A stretch of 64,000 bases of DNA, from NCBI GenBank assembly GCA_014859965.1, contig JACZKQ010000019.1, forward strand, positions 62,001 through 126,000, given 5' to 3'. The DNA comes from Phycisphaerae bacterium. GTDB lineage: Bacteria; Planctomycetota; Phycisphaerae; Sedimentisphaerales; Anaerohalosphaeraceae. Under the pieces are notes generated by a model. It saw only the letters and a list, made by a program, of their open reading frames with translations. It did not search any database and was not told the DNA's origin. The position numbers and the translations under genes were made by a program. Below, in pieces: positions 38,285 through 45,705 of this stretch (positions are counted from its first letter, which is position 1; each line of letters starts with the position of its first letter).

Positions 38285-39469
38285 ATGAAGGTCAGCAAGC
38301 GGGCACAGGCCGTGCCGCCGTCGGCGACGATGGCCGTGACGACCAGAGCCAATGAGATGAAGGCGCAGGGCATTGATGTGGTGGGATTTGGCGCAGGTGA
38401 GCCGGATTTTGACACGCCGGATTATATCAAGCAGGCGGCAATCGACGCGATACAGGCCGGCAAAACAAAATATACGGCGACATCCGGGACAATCGAGCTG
38501 CGGAAAGCCATTGCGGACAAGTTGAAGCGTGAAAACAAGTTGACGTATACCCCCGAGCAAATTATCGTGAATATTGGGGCCAAGCACTCGGTGTACGAGT
38601 GTATGCAGGCGGTTCTGGACCCCGGCGACGAGGTCATACTGCCGACGCCCTACTGGGTGACGTATCCCGAGGCGGTCAAACTGGCCGGAGCGACGCCGGT
38701 CGTCGTGCGGACACAGAGCAGCAATGGTTACAAACTCACACCCGAGCAGTTGAAGGCGGCGACGAATGATAAGACCGCGCTTCTCGTCCTCAATTCGCCA
38801 AACAATCCGGGGGGGTTCTCGTATACACCAGACGAACTTGCCGCATTGGCCAAGGCCCTTGAGGGCACCAGGATTATGGTTCTTTCTGATGAGATTTACG
38901 AGAAACTCATATATGGCGACACCCGTTTCGTAAGTTTCGCCTCACTGAGCGAGGATGCCTACCGACGGACGTTGACGGTTAACGGCCTGAGCAAGGCATT
39001 TGCGATGACCGGATGGCGGCTGGGTTACACGGCCGGCCCGCTGGACGTCATCAAAGCAATGGGACGGCTGCAGGACCACATGACCCAGAACCCGGTAACG
39101 TTTGCACAATCGGCGGCGGTTACGGCCTTGAACGATACGAGCGACGCAGTGGAAAAGATGCGTATCGAATTTGAGAAACGGGGCGTTTATATTCATAAGC
39201 GGCTCAATGCGATCAAGGGCGTCGCCTGCGACAAACCCACGGGTGCGTTTTATGCGTTTCCTGATGTTTCGGCGCACTACGGCCGAACGATCGGCGGCGC
39301 GGAGATCAACGGGAGCCTGGACTTTGCGTCGGCTCTTCTGGAGCAGGCGCAGGTAGCGATTGTCCCGGGCGAGCCCTTCGGCTGCCCCGAGAATGTACGT
39401 TTGAGTTTTGCCTGCTCAATGGCACAGATTGAAAAGGGTCTCGACAGGATCGAGAAATGGCTGAGTTGA
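38285..39469 (+). CDS. Class I PLP-dependent aminotransferase (aspartate aminotransferase type)
   Basis: A 394-residue PLP enzyme close to bacterial aspartate aminotransferases of the Ib subgroup. Motifs are GFGAGEPDFDTPDYI, KTKYTATSGTIELRKAI, the NSPNNPGG loop (cofactor-binding Asn), SDEIYEKL (Asp and Tyr of the cofactor site), the PLP-lysine motif NGLSKAFAMTGWRLGY, and the C-terminal substrate Arg in NVRLSFACS. It should transfer amino groups between aspartate, or another dicarboxylic or aromatic amino acid, and 2-oxoglutarate. It overlaps the next gene by 13 bases, so the two are probably coupled. Confidence 0.93.
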   Translation: MKVSKRAQAVPPSATMAVTTRANEMKAQGIDVVGFGAGEPDFDTPDYIKQAAIDAIQAGKTKYTATSGTIELRKAIADKLKRENKLTYTPEQIIVNIGAKHSVYECMQAVLDPGDEVILPTPYWVTYPEAVKLAGATPVVVRTQSSNGYKLTPEQLKAATNDKTALLVLNSPNNPGGFSYTPDELAALAKALEGTRIMVLSDEIYEKLIYGDTRFVSFASLSEDAYRRTLTVNGLSKAFAMTGWRLGYTAGPLDVIKAMGRLQDHMTQNPVTFAQSAAVTALNDTSDAVEKMRIEFEKRGVYIHKRLNAIKGVACDKPTGAFYAFPDVSAHYGRTIGGAEINGSLDFASALLEQAQVAIVPGEPFGCPENVRLSFACSMAQIEKGLDRIEKWLS

Positions 39470-41751
39470 CGGAGAACGGAACCAGACATTCTATTCTCAG
39501 AATTTGGACGGCGGCAGCGCTCTGGGCCATGATCGCCATCTTCGCGGGTCACGCATGCACACACATGGTGGCGGCCGGCGATACGTGGGTGGCGATGGCG
39601 TGCGGGCGGCACTTCGTGGAGCACGGGGTCGACACGGTCGAACCGTTCAGCTTTAATTCGCATAAGGCGGGCCCTACGCAAGCCCAGTTGGAGAGGTTTC
39701 CGGAATGGACGCGGCCGATCATCCAGAAGATTCATCCGACTGGATGGATTAACCAGAACTGGCTGACGCACGTGATTTTTTATCGTATGGCCCAGGCGTT
39801 TGGGACCGATGGGGATTACGACTACAACGCCTTGGTCTACTGGAAGTTCGGCGTGACGTTTTTGTGCGCGGTGTGCGTCTACTATATCGGGCGGGTCATG
39901 GGTGCAAGCGCGCCCTGGGCGGCGGCGGGAGCCTGTTTCGCCGTTTTTGTGGGGCGGACCTTCATTGACATAAGGCCAGCGGTTTTTTCGAATGTGCTGG
40001 TCGCAGCGTACCTGCTCATTTTGGTGCTTGCGACCTACAGAAACTTTCATTATATCTGGCTGATCGTGCCGCTGCTGGTCTTCTGGTGCAACGTTCACGG
40101 CGGGTACGTCTATGCCTTTATGATGCTTGTGGTCTTTGCGGGGATTCATTTTGTTACGATTCCCTTCAGGAAAGTGTTTCCGAGCATAGGGTTTAAGGGG
40201 GTGCTGCACACGGCGGGCGCCGGCCTTGTCGCGTTTCTGGCAATGCTCATCTTCAACCCGTTCCACCTGACCAACCTCACGCATACGTTCGAGATCAGCA
40301 TTTCGAAACACGCTGAATCGTGGCGGACGGTGAACGAATGGCACGGGGCTTTCGAGTGGAACAATCCGGTGGGCGAGGAGACGGCATTTCTCGTCATGTT
40401 TATTCTGATGTTCGCGGCGATGGGCTTGTGGATAGTGGCAATGACGCTCAGGCCGCGGGTTGAGACAAGGCGGCGGGCACGGGGCAATGGCGACCCGATC
40501 CCGGGCACTTTCGAGTGGCCCAAGGTCGATCTGGCTTATATCGCGATTGCAATCTATACGGTTTCCATGGCAGTCAAGATGCGGCGGTTTATTCCGCTTG
40601 CGGGAGTAGCGATGTGCCCGCTGATGGCGCTCTTCCTGGACCATGCTGTCAAAATGATCGGCGCGCGGGTGCAGTTTAACCGGACGGGTCGACTGGACTT
40701 GCCTGCCCTGCCGGCCAGACTGCGGTGGGCGGTCCCGGCGGGATTCACCGTAGCGGCGGTTCTCCTCGGAACACTTTGGGGAGCGCGTTATAAGCATGTT
40801 TATCTCGACCCGTGGGCCAACGACGACGTGCGGGACTCTGTCTTCATGCGAATGACGGCATCGAATATTAAGCCGTTTGAAGTATGCTGGTTCATCCGCG
40901 AGAACAACCTCAGCGGCCGTATATTCAATCACTGGACAGAAGGCGGCGCCGTGGCATTCGGTCAACACCCGGATGAAAAGACGGGTGAGATTCCGCTGAA
41001 GCTGTTTATGGACGGTCGTGCACAGGCGGCTTACAATCATGACAAGTTTAAGCTGTGGCAGTATATTAAGAGCGGGGGCCCGCAGGTTCGCAGCGCATTT
41101 CTGGCTAAACGCAAGCTTGCGTACCCCGATTTCGAGAAGATCGGCGCGTGGATCGACGCCCAGTTGAAGGAACACGACGTGTGGGTGATTCTGATGCCGG
41201 TCAATGAGATCAATTCCGATTTCATGATGGGCATGCAGACGCAGACAAACTGGCGCACGGCTTACATGGACAATTACCAGTTTCTTCTGATCAACAAGGA
41301 AACGCCGCAGGGACAGCAGCTTTTGGATGACATACTCAACCAGAAGGCCCGGTTTCCCAATGATTTTTCGAAGGAGCTGACGCTGGCCAAGAACCTGCTG
41401 GCCTTCAGGGATGAGGCTTTGTCGCGCCGCGGGCTGGAGCACGCGATAAGGTCGTTCGAAGTCGACAACTCTCAGGCCCCGATGCAGTTGCTGGTACACG
41501 ATGCGGCCATGCGGCATGCACATCTGCGGGCGGCGGCGACCGCCTTTATTGTCTCATACCTGGACCGTTTCATAAGCAATAAGCATGTGTACGCGACCCA
41601 GGGGGGCTATACGAAGAAGCTGGTCGCGGCGATGATCGCAGCCAACTATCTTGCGGGAACCCCGAATCCGGAGTACAAAGAGAAGTACGGCGGCCTTGAC
41701 GAACTGTACAAGGAAGAACAGCAGCGTATTGGACAAAAAGCAAGATGGTAA
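39457..41751 (+). CDS. Large polytopic membrane protein, possible GT-C-type glycosyltransferase
   Basis: A 764-residue protein with about ten membrane helices in the first 450 residues and a soluble C-terminal third. The N-terminal periplasmic loop after helix 1 holds GDTWVAMACGRHFVEHGVDT and GWINQNWLTHVIFY. This resembles the acidic first loop and layout of GT-C transferases that use polyprenyl-phosphate sugars, but no single motif proves it. The ATG lies within the end of the aminotransferase gene, and the stop overlaps the start of a GT2 enzyme that could make a polyprenyl-phosphate sugar donor. That neighbour supports a role in envelope or protein glycosylation. Confidence 0.7.
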   Translation: MAELTENGTRHSILRIWTAAALWAMIAIFAGHACTHMVAAGDTWVAMACGRHFVEHGVDTVEPFSFNSHKAGPTQAQLERFPEWTRPIIQKIHPTGWINQNWLTHVIFYRMAQAFGTDGDYDYNALVYWKFGVTFLCAVCVYYIGRVMGASAPWAAAGACFAVFVGRTFIDIRPAVFSNVLVAAYLLILVLATYRNFHYIWLIVPLLVFWCNVHGGYVYAFMMLVVFAGIHFVTIPFRKVFPSIGFKGVLHTAGAGLVAFLAMLIFNPFHLTNLTHTFEISISKHAESWRTVNEWHGAFEWNNPVGEETAFLVMFILMFAAMGLWIVAMTLRPRVETRRRARGNGDPIPGTFEWPKVDLAYIAIAIYTVSMAVKMRRFIPLAGVAMCPLMALFLDHAVKMIGARVQFNRTGRLDLPALPARLRWAVPAGFTVAAVLLGTLWGARYKHVYLDPWANDDVRDSVFMRMTASNIKPFEVCWFIRENNLSGRIFNHWTEGGAVAFGQHPDEKTGEIPLKLFMDGRAQAAYNHDKFKLWQYIKSGGPQVRSAFLAKRKLAYPDFEKIGAWIDAQLKEHDVWVILMPVNEINSDFMMGMQTQTNWRTAYMDNYQFLLINKETPQGQQLLDDILNQKARFPNDFSKELTLAKNLLAFRDEALSRRGLEHAIRSFEVDNSQAPMQLLVHDAAMRHAHLRAAATAFIVSYLDRFISNKHVYATQGGYTKKLVAAMIAANYLAGTPNPEYKEKYGGLDELYKEEQQRIGQKARW

Positions 41752-42485
41752 TGAATGCTTCTCTCCACCCCGACGATTCCGGTCTCGGCCGGTGTGAGAT
41801 CAGTGTATTTTTTCCCTGCCACAACGAAGCAGCAAGCGTGGAATCGCTGGTGCGCAAGACCATTGGCGTCCTGAATGAAGTCGCCTCCGATTATGAGATT
41901 ATTATTGTTGACGACGGCAGCACGGATGAGACACCGGCGATTGCCGATCGGCTGGTTGACGAACTTGCGGCAGTGAAGGTGGTCCACCACCCGACGAACC
42001 TCGGCTATGGGGCGGCGCTGCAGTCGGGTTTCAGGGCAGCGACAAAGGAGTGGGTATTTTACACCGACGGAGACGCCCAGTTCGATGTCGAGGAATTAAA
42101 AGGCATTCTACCGCTCGCAGGGCAGTACGATATTGTGAGCTGTTACCGCCTGAATCGGCAGGAGGGCTGGCGGAGGCGTTTGAGTGCATTCTGCTGGAAC
42201 CGGCTGGTCGGCCGGGTATTTCGAATGCGCCTGAAAGACGTGGACTGTGCATTTAAGCTGTACCGCCGTGAGATTTTCGACCGGATTGAAATGCAGAGCC
42301 AGGGCGCCTTGATCGATGCGGAAATACTGGCTCGGGCGCTGCGCAAAGGCTACACGATCGGACAGGCGGGCGTGCGGCACTATCCGCGAAGGTCGGGAAG
42401 GTCGTCGGGCGGCGATCCACGGGTAATCCTGCGTGCGTTTCGAGAACTGCTGCAATTACGCGGCGAGATTTTGCGTGATGGATGA
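41745..42485 (+). CDS. GT2 glycosyltransferase (dolichol/polyprenyl-phosphate mannosyltransferase-like)
   Basis: A 246-residue GT-A-fold enzyme. It has VFFPCHNEAASVESLV, the nucleotide-sugar motif IIIVDDGSTDETP, HPTNLGYGAALQSGF, the metal-binding DGDAQFD and a conserved DVDCAFKLYRR. Without C-terminal membrane helices it resembles soluble DPM1-type enzymes, which transfer a hexose from a nucleotide to a polyprenyl phosphate. It overlaps the upstream membrane protein by seven bases and the downstream alanine racemase by four (ATGA). Tight coupling suggests these genes serve one envelope pathway. The actual sugar is unknown. Confidence 0.9.
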   Translation: MVMNASLHPDDSGLGRCEISVFFPCHNEAASVESLVRKTIGVLNEVASDYEIIIVDDGSTDETPAIADRLVDELAAVKVVHHPTNLGYGAALQSGFRAATKEWVFYTDGDAQFDVEELKGILPLAGQYDIVSCYRLNRQEGWRRRLSAFCWNRLVGRVFRMRLKDVDCAFKLYRREIFDRIEMQSQGALIDAEILARALRKGYTIGQAGVRHYPRRSGRSSGGDPRVILRAFRELLQLRGEILRDG

Positions 42486-43639
42486 CCATGAAACTTTATC
42501 GCGGCCATGCCCTGATTCGACCGGATCTGCAGGCGCACATCTATTCGAGAGCGCTTCTGAATAACGCAATGAACCTGAAGCGGCTCTGTGCGCCCGGAAC
42601 ACGTTTCTGCGCGGTGGTGAAGGCCAATGCGTATGGGCACGGCCTCCATGAGGTGGTCAACGTTCTCCAGGGCGCGGACGTGGACTTCTTTGCAGTTGCG
42701 AGCTTCTACGAGGCGATCCACATCGCCGAAATGGTGCATCGCCAATCGATCCTGATTCTTGAGCCGCTGATTGAGGGTGCGCCGCCTGACCAGGTTTTTG
42801 CGTGCGCCCATTACGACCTGCACTGTGTCGCGGCGTCACTGGAAGCGGTGACGTACGTTGCCGGCCTGCTGGCGGGCGGCATTCAGGTGCTGAATCTGCA
42901 CCTGAACGTGGAGTCGGGTATGGGGCGCTGCGGTGTCGAGGAGGCGTGCGCGGCGGAGATGATCCGGCGGATCGACGCGTGTCCGAATCTGCGTCTGGCC
43001 GGCATATATACGCATTTTGCGACGGCGGACGAGGACGATCATTCGTACGCCCGGGACCAGTTGAAGCGTTTCAACGGTTTCCTCGATCGCATGCACCTGC
43101 GGGCGCGGCCGGATGTCCTGGTGCATGCGGCCAACAGCGCCGCAACGATCAAAATGCCGGACGCACATTTCGACATGGTGCGGTGCGGAGTGAGCCTTTA
43201 CGGTTATTACTCAAGGCCGATGGCCAACGCGCCGGTGCGGCTGGAGCCGGCGATGAAACTGCAAGCGCCCATTACGCAGCTCAAGCGGATCGCGGCGGGA
43301 GAATCGGTGAGTTACGGACGGTCGTTCATGGCGCCGCGGGACACGACGGCCGCGATTATTCCACTGGGCTATGCGGACGGCTACCGGCGGTGTTTTTCGA
43401 ATCGGGCGGTGATGAAGCTGGGCGAGCACATAGCGCCTGTGATCGGACGGGTGTGCATGGACCAGATCATCCTCGACGTGACCGACGTGCCGGGTGTGCG
43501 ATTAGGTCAAATAGTGACGGTGATCGATTCGGACCACGACTCCCCTTGCGGAGTGTACCGGCTTGCGGAACTCGCCGATACGATTTGTTACGAGATTCTG
43601 ACGTGTGTGCATGCACACGTAAACCGCATCGTGCACTAA
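42482..43639 (+). CDS. alr: Alanine racemase
   Basis: A 385-residue PLP enzyme making D-alanine for peptidoglycan. The PLP-lysine lies in CAVVKANAYGHGLHEV near residue 41. HLNVESGMGRCGV, YTHFATADEDDHSY, RCGVSLYGYY and GYADGYRR follow. The C-terminal catalytic Tyr region and GRVCMDQIILDVTDVPG are the standard Alr signatures. Length is normal. The start at 42482 overlaps the GT2 stop; the second ATG at 42488 is equally possible. It supports the idea that this operon makes cell-wall material, in a phylum where peptidoglycan was long disputed. Confidence 0.93.
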   Translation: MTMKLYRGHALIRPDLQAHIYSRALLNNAMNLKRLCAPGTRFCAVVKANAYGHGLHEVVNVLQGADVDFFAVASFYEAIHIAEMVHRQSILILEPLIEGAPPDQVFACAHYDLHCVAASLEAVTYVAGLLAGGIQVLNLHLNVESGMGRCGVEEACAAEMIRRIDACPNLRLAGIYTHFATADEDDHSYARDQLKRFNGFLDRMHLRARPDVLVHAANSAATIKMPDAHFDMVRCGVSLYGYYSRPMANAPVRLEPAMKLQAPITQLKRIAAGESVSYGRSFMAPRDTTAAIIPLGYADGYRRCFSNRAVMKLGEHIAPVIGRVCMDQIILDVTDVPGVRLGQIVTVIDSDHDSPCGVYRLAELADTICYEILTCVHAHVNRIVH

Positions 43640-43734: not shown

Positions 43735-45705
43735 ATGGAAACCAGAAAAGTCAATCTGTTCGTCTACGGATCGCTGCGGGACGCTTCGGTCTTTCAGTCG
43801 GTGTGCGGACTTCATTTCACGGTGCGGCCGTCGCGCGTCGAACGCAGCATTCTGTTAGCCGAACTTGCGCTGCTGGCCAATTATCGGCGCGTAAGCCCCG
43901 ACAATGTCTATTTTTACGCGGTGCCGGACGCATCTGCAAAAATCGAAGGGTTTGTGATCTATGACGTACCGCCTGCGGCGATGGCGGAAATCGACCGGTA
44001 CGAGGGACATCTCTACGACCGGGAAACGGTGCATGTGAACACCGCGGGCGGCCTGGTCGAGGCTCAGGCGTATCTTGCCAGCCCGAAGACGATGAAGAAA
44101 CGCTTCGGGGACCGTTTTCACGTGAACCTGATTCATGAATTGTGGCTGCGAAAACGGATCGAACTTTTTTTTCAGACGCACACCCGGCCCGGCGAGGAAT
44201 CGCCTGACGCGGACGTCGAGCGAAGGGCGCGGCGACAACTGTTGGGCACGACGGAGCGCGACCTCGTCGTGAGCCACCTGCGCAGCGACGTTGTCAGCGA
44301 CTACTACCTGGAACACGAGCTGGACCGGCCGTATCAAAGCATCCGGCATTTGTATAGTGAACCGGAGGCGGCGCCGTTCATCGACAATTACCTTGCGCTG
44401 GTCGTCAAGCAAGTTGTGCTCAATCAGTTCGAACACATCCTCCAGTCACGTTACCGCTACGAGTTGGACCGGCTTTATCCGTCGCGGCGATTCTACACGC
44501 GGTCGGCAAGCGTACTGGCGGCACTGCGAATGATCAATGCGAACACAGCCGCCGTTCAGATGATGCTGCGGCGGTGCCTGGAGACTATGCCTTCGGGGGA
44601 TCGCTACGATTTGATCGATTACGTCAAGTACGGCGTGGCGGCGGCGGAGAGTATCTTTGACTCGCGAATGGCTTCCAGTGAAATCGAGCGCATCCGGGCC
44701 AACGCACAGCCCGGCCTGGTTCCTATGGGGGCGGAACTGGAATTGAGCAACCTCGGCTTCAGGGCCATCGACGCAAACAGCCAGAAGCAGGAGGTGATAT
44801 TCGACGGGTTCAAGTATTTCAGCGATTTCGGCCTGGACGTCTTGACATGGAAGCTGGGCGGGTATGTGGATGACCATACAGGCCGGTCGGGCCCGCGTCG
44901 GCGAGGATTCCTGGAACTGGCGCCGGGACGGCTCAATACCGCGGGGGAGATTTCCAAGCCCGCCACCGGGGACCCCTGGCTGATGAACCAGTTGATCCGG
45001 GAGATCGCATTGTTTTATCCGGTGCGGCCCCACTCGCTGCATCTGTCGTTTCAGATCATGCGGCATCGCGCCCTGAACCGCAAAGTCCTGCCGCTGAGCT
45101 TTGTCAAGTGTCTGCTGGCGCTGGGCGGCGGCACACAAACGAACGCCATGGGCCGCCTATGGATTTCGCGTATGCAGCACGACGAAATCGAGCAGAACAT
45201 CTACGGCGAGGAACTGGTCTTCTCTCGAATCAGCAAGCGTTCGTTTCAATTGAGCCGCGACGAAATCGGCGAGAAATCGGCGATGCACGGGGCCAGTTAC
45301 GTACAGCAGTACAAGTTTATCCGCCTTGATCCGCGGGCCAACTACGAGCCGCTGATCATGGCGCTCAAGGGATTACAGTTTGCATACAACCCGGCCGATT
45401 ATCTGACGGCACAGCAGTTGGCGTCCAGCCGCAGACTGCGGAGGCAATACGATGAGTTGAAAGAATGGTCGGCAAACCCGACCGAGATCAGCCGTGGTTC
45501 ACGTACACGGTTCGTGGAGACGATTCGGGCGGGTCTGCTCCAGGAGGCCCACAGGCGGCCGTACCACCAACTGCATTACATCGACTGGGCGGTCGGGGCG
45601 GTGGATATTCAACTTCGGCTGTTCAATAAGCAGATCGAGCACCCGCCCGCCGCCGAATCGGAACCGGACGCCGACACGAACTCCTTCAAACTGCACCAGC
45701 CCTGA
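43735..45705 (+). CDS. Fusion of gamma-glutamylcyclotransferase-like and putative ligase (GCS/amidoligase-like) domains
   Basis: A 656-residue cytosolic protein with no signal peptide. Residues 5-120 form a GGCT/AIG2-like domain: LFVYGSLRD is the YGSL substrate loop, and IDRYEGHLYDRETV holds the likely catalytic Glu. A helical linker of about 200 residues follows. From about residue 328, GAELELSNLGF, FLELAPGRLNT, GEISKP and HSLHLSFQI (near 432) follow in an order like the ExE, E-[IL]-x-[ST]-xP and HxH motifs of the glutamate-cysteine ligase and amidoligase fold. The fusion would join a gamma-glutamyl-bond-breaking domain to a bond-forming one. The ligase assignment is inference; the cyclotransferase is firmer. 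It starts 95 bases after alr. Confidence 0.6.
   Translation: METRKVNLFVYGSLRDASVFQSVCGLHFTVRPSRVERSILLAELALLANYRRVSPDNVYFYAVPDASAKIEGFVIYDVPPAAMAEIDRYEGHLYDRETVHVNTAGGLVEAQAYLASPKTMKKRFGDRFHVNLIHELWLRKRIELFFQTHTRPGEESPDADVERRARRQLLGTTERDLVVSHLRSDVVSDYYLEHELDRPYQSIRHLYSEPEAAPFIDNYLALVVKQVVLNQFEHILQSRYRYELDRLYPSRRFYTRSASVLAALRMINANTAAVQMMLRRCLETMPSGDRYDLIDYVKYGVAAAESIFDSRMASSEIERIRANAQPGLVPMGAELELSNLGFRAIDANSQKQEVIFDGFKYFSDFGLDVLTWKLGGYVDDHTGRSGPRRRGFLELAPGRLNTAGEISKPATGDPWLMNQLIREIALFYPVRPHSLHLSFQIMRHRALNRKVLPLSFVKCLLALGGGTQTNAMGRLWISRMQHDEIEQNIYGEELVFSRISKRSFQLSRDEIGEKSAMHGASYVQQYKFIRLDPRANYEPLIMALKGLQFAYNPADYLTAQQLASSRRLRRQYDELKEWSANPTEISRGSRTRFVETIRAGLLQEAHRRPYHQLHYIDWAVGAVDIQLRLFNKQIEHPPAAESEPDADTNSFKLHQP

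Follow-up and report, generated by a model that had tools for sequence, protein, structure and literature searches.

The window analysed here, a stretch of 64,000 nucleotides, contains an operon on the forward strand in which genes for an aminotransferase, a GT-C-like membrane protein, a GT2 glycosyltransferase and an alanine racemase, with short overlaps among these four, are followed by a last gene that encodes a fusion protein (Table 1). The membrane protein was read as GT-C type on the basis of its topology rather than of a family match. Although it has neither a Pfam nor an NCBIfam model, 153 of 159 genomes from the order contain homologues of it. A 748-residue open frame on the minus strand (39277-41523) runs antisense to its gene and is probably a shadow frame and not a gene. 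With regard to the GT2 protein, the nearest NCBIfam model is ArnC (2e-23), all NCBIfam models scoring under their cut-offs.

Table 1. Coordinates of the fusion gene, its domains and putative functional residues, and the neighbouring genes. Positions refer to the window unless a locus is given; fractions are counts in the 93-row alignment.
Feature	Position	Strand	Remarks
Aspartate-type aminotransferase	38285..39469	+	NF004769, E 2.5e-119, under its cut-off
GT-C-like membrane protein	39457..41751	+	764 aa; about 9 TM segments by prediction; matches no family model
GT2 glycosyltransferase resembling the polyprenyl-phosphate type	41745..42485	+	PF00535, E 4.2e-30
Alanine racemase (alr)	42482..43639	+	TIGR00492, E 1.6e-88
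Whole fusion gene	43735..45705	+	656 aa: GGACT cyclotransferase, conserved helical middle region, predicted divergent carboxylate-amine ligase domain
GGACT/AIG2-like gamma-glutamyl cyclotransferase domain	43756..44085	+	Residues 8-117, PF06094
YGSL substrate-binding loop (Y11-L14)	43765..43776	+	Y11, G12, S13 93/93; L14 92/93
Predicted catalytic Glu E90, YEG motif	44002..44004	+	Invariant, 93/93
Middle helical region	44095..44709	+	Residues 121-325; contains GDRFHVNLIHELWLRKRI within 121-210
Predicted carboxylate-amine ligase domain, glutamine synthetase/GCS/Pup ligase fold	44710..45654	+	Residues 326-640; predicted structure
GhExE signature G332-A-E334-L-E336, core strand 1, putative Mg/ATP	44728..44742	+	G332, E334, E336 93/93
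D379, acidic residue of core strand 2	44869..44871	+	93/93; model strand 377-380
E394, acidic residue of core strand 3 (FLELAPGR)	44914..44916	+	93/93; model strand 391-395
E405 of GEISKP, alternative strand-3 acidic residue	44947-44949	+	Mostly E, D in some
HSLHLS, core strand 4 (H433, H436, S438)	45031..45048	+	H433, H436 93/93; 438 is S in 88, T in 5
R479, arginine preceding core strand 5	45169..45171	+	93/93
R498 to R502, arginines of core strand 5	45226..45240	+	R498 85/93, R502 91/93; strand 497-503
Q525-Y-K527-F-I-R530, core strand 6	45307..45324	+	Q525, K527, R530 93/93; strand 522-528
Gene pieces in genome G371	L094:6172-7269 and L095:5155-5772

The first-pass annotation had described the last gene as a cyclotransferase joined to a ligase-like domain, from the motifs YGSL, YEG, GAELEL, GEISKP and HSLHLS, all of which were found in the translation. 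The two-domain observation was upheld, the cyclotransferase half by Pfam and by full-length homologues and the ligase half by its predicted fold. The open reading frame is a real gene, since a search of 59 related genomes returned homologues that were mostly full length and 53-72% identical, a profile search was positive in 119 of the order's 161 genomes, spread over 60 of 84 genera, and both halves are covered by 92 distinct full-length homologues, which together with the query form an alignment of 93 rows. Residues of catalytic type do not vary in this alignment, and in the genomes of the order the profile search found nearly always a single copy per genome. In one genome (G371), the gene is split into two pieces lying 0.8 Mb apart, which correspond to residues 1-151 and 194-642. 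This reflects either a rearrangement or an assembly fault, the latter being considered because the genome is a single contig at 59% completeness.

The N-terminal half belongs to the GGACT/AIG2-like family (PF06094), which includes mouse and human GGACT and BtrG. Its match to the Pfam model (E 2.3e-14) reached 54.4 bits against a cut-off of 22.8 bits, and all 20 aligned fusion members examined in this way matched the same model. When the full-length profile was compared with PDB sequences, plant AIG2-like proteins were the only matches (E about 1.5e-4). The catalytic site of mouse GGACT includes Tyr7, Gly8, Thr9, Leu10 and Glu82 (PMC2954230); the YGSL loop is the counterpart of the first four of these residues, and E90 is taken as the counterpart of Glu82 from the family pattern, the fold model being poor in the N-terminal half. 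Loss of the catalytic glutamate, which had been raised as a possible objection, was not observed in any of the 93 sequences, and Y94 is nearly invariant as well. In contrast to the usual members of this family, which are small stand-alone proteins, the domain is here part of a fusion.

The C-terminal half matched no sequence model in Pfam, NCBIfam or the PDB, and matches in PHROGs were confined to the GGACT part, with none usable for the ligase half. The Pup ligase/depupylase family (PF03136) was absent from the matches of 35 members at E-values up to 10, and neither GCS2 (PF04107) nor Amidoligase_2 (PF12224) matched the ligase half, genome G000 being devoid of matches to either model. Local hhalign comparisons, made with shallow alignments from the same phylum, were not significant for GCS2, for the Pup ligase family or for Amidoligase_2, the last yielding a fragment of 22 columns. 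Matches to Thoc2 spanned 23 residues at a best E-value of 0.003, below the cut-off, and were dismissed as chance. On sequence grounds, the ligase half thus falls outside PafA/Dop, GCS2 and Amidoligase_2, as none of their family models matches it, and the earlier guess that this ligase family has no name was borne out. Given that no sequence-profile comparison was significant, the assignment of this half is based on its predicted model (pLDDT 77) and on its motifs.

Structures were predicted from family alignments for the full-length protein (pLDDT 68) and for the isolated domain (pLDDT 77, pTM 0.82). In structural alignments, the isolated-domain model was closest to PafA and Dop (both Z 14.3), with which it superposes over 252 and 238 residues at 3.9 and 3.7 A, respectively, followed by glutamate-cysteine ligase (13.3), YbdK (12.8) and glutamine synthetase (about 11). 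Among the matches listed (50 rows), all belong to this superfamily, with Z between 10 and 14; they comprise PafA, Dop, glutamate-cysteine ligase (alone or within bifunctional glutathione synthetase), YbdK and glutamine-synthetase-type chains. Foldseek also placed PafA first (E 3.4e-5). Residues 327-646 of the full-length model gave a similar picture, with Dop at Z 12.5, PafA at 12.2, YbdK-type at 11.9, bifunctional glutathione synthetase at 11.5 and glutamate-cysteine ligase at 10.1, whereas the first unrelated chain appeared only at Z 6.8. Global TM-scores were modest (about 0.4), which is in line with a distant member, and a viral structure library returned one weak nameless match and a phage amidoligase at E 0.016. 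An unrelated C-terminal fold had been considered as a possible refutation, but the predicted model is of the carboxylate-amine ligase type. Together with the motifs, this leads us to call the C-terminal half a predicted divergent member of the carboxylate-amine/ammonia ligase superfamily.

Iyer, Burroughs and Aravind defined this superfamily by six strands and their motifs, including GhExE (PMC2588565), and these motifs were compared with the 93 aligned sequences. The fusion resembles the PafA/Dop/GCS1/GCS2-YbdK/GS superfamily in its predicted fold, which extends over about 235-256 residues, and in the GhExE signature, the acidic residues of strands 2 and 3, the histidine of strand 4 and the arginines around strand 5. 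The predicted fold and the GhExE signature are thus present, whereas two minor motifs deviate. In strand 4, H436 is invariant and the third position is S or T (HxS/T), compared with [HD]x[NH] in the superfamily and [HQ]x[NH] in PafA. In strand 6, where the usual motif is Ex[RK]x2D and that of PafA is [QH]x4D (PMC2588565), the first two positions of Q525-x-K527-x2-R530 fit and the final D is replaced by R; the glutamine, found where glutamate is usual, recalls PafA, which has Q or H there. The ordered series GAELEL, GEISKP and HSLHLS reported earlier is present, but GEISKP is possibly not the motif of core strand 3, as the model points to E394. E405 of GEISKP sits just after model strand 3 (391-395, GFLELAPG) and is possibly an alternative to E394 as the acidic residue of this strand; a weak, non-significant profile alignment to Amidoligase_2 pairs GEISKP with YELVTPP. 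Beyond these motifs, the fusion ligase differs from the superfamily in that it has no sequence match to any member family and in that it sits behind a cyclotransferase and a helical region.

This helical region has no significant match in Pfam or the PDB and belongs to no known family, and part of it has low confidence in the full-length model. Its residues 121-210 (44095-44364) are nevertheless the most conserved stretch of the protein, with a mean pairwise identity of 0.74 compared with 0.55-0.66 elsewhere (0.63 in the GGACT domain and 0.66 in the ligase core, in the 93-row alignment), and the segment GDRFHVNLIHELWLRKRI within them is nearly invariant. Conservation of this degree would be surprising in a plain linker, and residues 121-210 probably contribute to an active site or to an interface.

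The fusion was matched in 39 of the 59 related genomes and was found in four families, namely the window's own (f1), f3, f6 and f7; it was not found in families f2, f4 and f5, either in the 59-genome or in the 161-genome search. A phylum-wide draw of 294 genomes gave six matches, all from the window's own family. A pattern scan of species genomes yielded 118 relatives; among the matches listed (80 of 118), those with titles naming an organism beyond "uncultured bacterium" were from Planctomycetota, often Phycisphaerae or Sedimentisphaerales. Viral contigs and plasmids contained no relatives of the fusion. Across 343 genomes of the phylum, the GGACT model matched in 88, and the ligase profile gave nothing convincing outside the order. 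Five of the largest GGACT frames outside the clade (456, 672, 1589, 404 and 356 aa) were read as candidate fusions and rejected, because in each a stand-alone GGACT domain forms the end of a long GC-rich frame that is open by chance. On these grounds, the fusion looks specific to this clade within the sampled genomes, other phyla being covered by the pattern scan alone.

The gene order around the fusion is widely kept. Among 40 loci, the GT2 cluster was found in 37, the GT-C-like cluster in 36 and alr in 14, the latter in f1 and f3, where it lies directly upstream of the fusion; in f6 and f7 (e.g. L068 and L069), alr is missing from this position and the fusion directly follows the GT2 gene. 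In seven loci of f2 and f4, the aminotransferase/GT-C/GT2/alr cassette is intact without the fusion, which is thus a conserved follower of an older cassette and not a required part of it. The envelope link is therefore weaker than proposed earlier: the neighbours are conserved across loci, but the cassette occurs without the fusion in two sister families, so that the link is only circumstantial, a lead. The neighbours point to no substrate.

Ligases of this superfamily use ATP to phosphorylate a carboxylate and then pass the acyl group on to an amine, and the cyclotransferases cleave a gamma-glutamyl amide through attack by its own alpha-amino group, which yields 5-oxoproline. Computation supports the domain content and the predicted fold and shows that residues of catalytic type are conserved; from these we infer the enzymatic activity, the glutamate substrate, the nature of the amine and the action of both halves on one bond. 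We consider it probable that the protein is a bifunctional gamma-glutamyl-amide enzyme, in which an ATP-dependent ligase and a matching cyclotransferase serve to protect and deprotect an amine or to turn it over. A shared gamma-glutamyl amide would be the simplest reading of the fusion. The ligase domain would bind Mg-ATP on a saddle-shaped sheet through E334, E336, D379, E394 and H436 and would phosphorylate a carboxylate group, that at the gamma position of free glutamate being the likeliest; attack of an amine on the acyl phosphate would then give a gamma-glutamyl amide. In the GGACT domain, the same glutamyl unit would, with the help of E90, attack its amide bond through its own alpha-amino group and release 5-oxoproline and the free amine. 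Such a pair could operate as a protect/deprotect or turnover device, as in the butirosin or gamma-glutamyl-polyamine pathways. Against this reading stand the lack of a significant sequence-profile match for the ligase half, the deviations in strands 4 and 6, and neighbours that give no hint of a substrate; moreover, opposed activities in one chain would amount to a futile cycle unless they are regulated or act on different substrates.

Different substrates are at the centre of the reading in which each domain has a molecule of its own, the ligase serving, for instance, to decorate the cell envelope with peptides or aminosugars and the GGACT domain having another role, and the two are fused for co-regulation alone. 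The way the fusion regularly follows the GT-C-like and GT2 genes, and alr as well in f1 and f3, is consistent with it, as is the wide substrate range of the GGACT family. We nonetheless regard it as rather unlikely: as the cassette persists without the fusion in f2 and f4, the pathway of the cassette does not require the fusion, and the two domains have matching chemistries. Somewhat less likely still is that both halves break bonds, the ligase fold hydrolysing as Dop does and the GGACT domain clearing the gamma-glutamyl remnant, which would make the protein a scavenger of isopeptides of the gamma-glutamyl type. Dop, a hydrolase of Pup isopeptides with the same fold, does tie with PafA as the best structural match, and strand 6 carries a glutamine as in PafA-type enzymes, but hydrolysis of the Dop type is an exception in the superfamily, and no member of the Pup ligase family was found in the 40 relatives searched, so that Pup conjugates are not expected as substrate. 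A link to pupylation was rejected for the same reason, and a Pup-like protein tag is unlikely and fits poorly, because the cyclotransferase can act only on a glutamyl unit whose alpha-amino group is free.

The protein could also replace glutamate-cysteine ligase and, with its cyclotransferase, run a thiol or gamma-glutamyl cycle in organisms without GCS2, as might be suggested by the presence of glutamate-cysteine ligase among the best fold matches and by the near absence of GCS2 from the order (5 of 159 genomes). GCS2 is, however, rare whether or not a family has the fusion, so the two show no complementary pattern, and GGACT-type enzymes prefer gamma-glutamyl amines. With GCS2 rare in the whole order, a replacement of glutathione synthesis is not indicated, and we consider this explanation very improbable. 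We give equally little credence to the ligase domain being a catalytically dead regulator or a binding scaffold for the cyclotransferase. The deviations from the commonest motifs in strands 4 (HxS/T) and 6 (Q for E) would be in keeping with a dead domain, but PafA likewise has Q or H in strand 6, and the putative metal and ATP residues are invariant in 93 sequences at a mean domain identity of about 66%.

The preferred reading of a ligase paired with a cyclotransferase has precedents in separate proteins. In butirosin biosynthesis, BtrJ adds a gamma-glutamyl group that the GGACT-family cyclotransferase BtrG later removes; BtrJ is an ATP-grasp ligase and thus, unlike the fusion, does not have the glutamine synthetase fold. 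The pairing also has precedent within the superfamily, as genes of an uncharacterised ligase family share neighbourhoods with an Aig2-type cyclotransferase (PMC2588565). The same two chemistries are genetically linked in these pairs, which consist of two genes in Firmicutes, whereas the present case is one polypeptide with a helical region in Planctomycetota, and the Amidoligase_2 model fails to match its ligase. The pairing of an amidoligase with an AIG2-type cyclotransferase is accordingly known; what stands out here is that the two are fused, that the ligase is divergent and that the protein is strongly conserved across four families of a single order. A literature search returned no paper on such a fusion, an earlier mention being possible in the 2009 amidoligase survey by Iyer and colleagues.

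More tentatively, the protein might represent a single-polypeptide gamma-glutamyl cycle that places a reversible glutamate tag on an amine, an enzyme that would define the clade of Sedimentisphaerales-type Planctomycetota, with a ligase of an undescribed family and with the near-invariant middle region (GDRFHVNLIHELWLRKRI) as a third functional part coupling or switching the two active sites. As the two domains are fused, a single purified protein and two point mutants would be enough to test directly whether they share a substrate. In four families of a bacterial order that has been little studied, most members have retained the fusion. Should the proposed function be right, the superfamily responsible for glutamine, glutathione precursors and Pup conjugates would gain an unnamed family, and a single protein would unite the forming and the breaking step of gamma-glutamyl chemistry.
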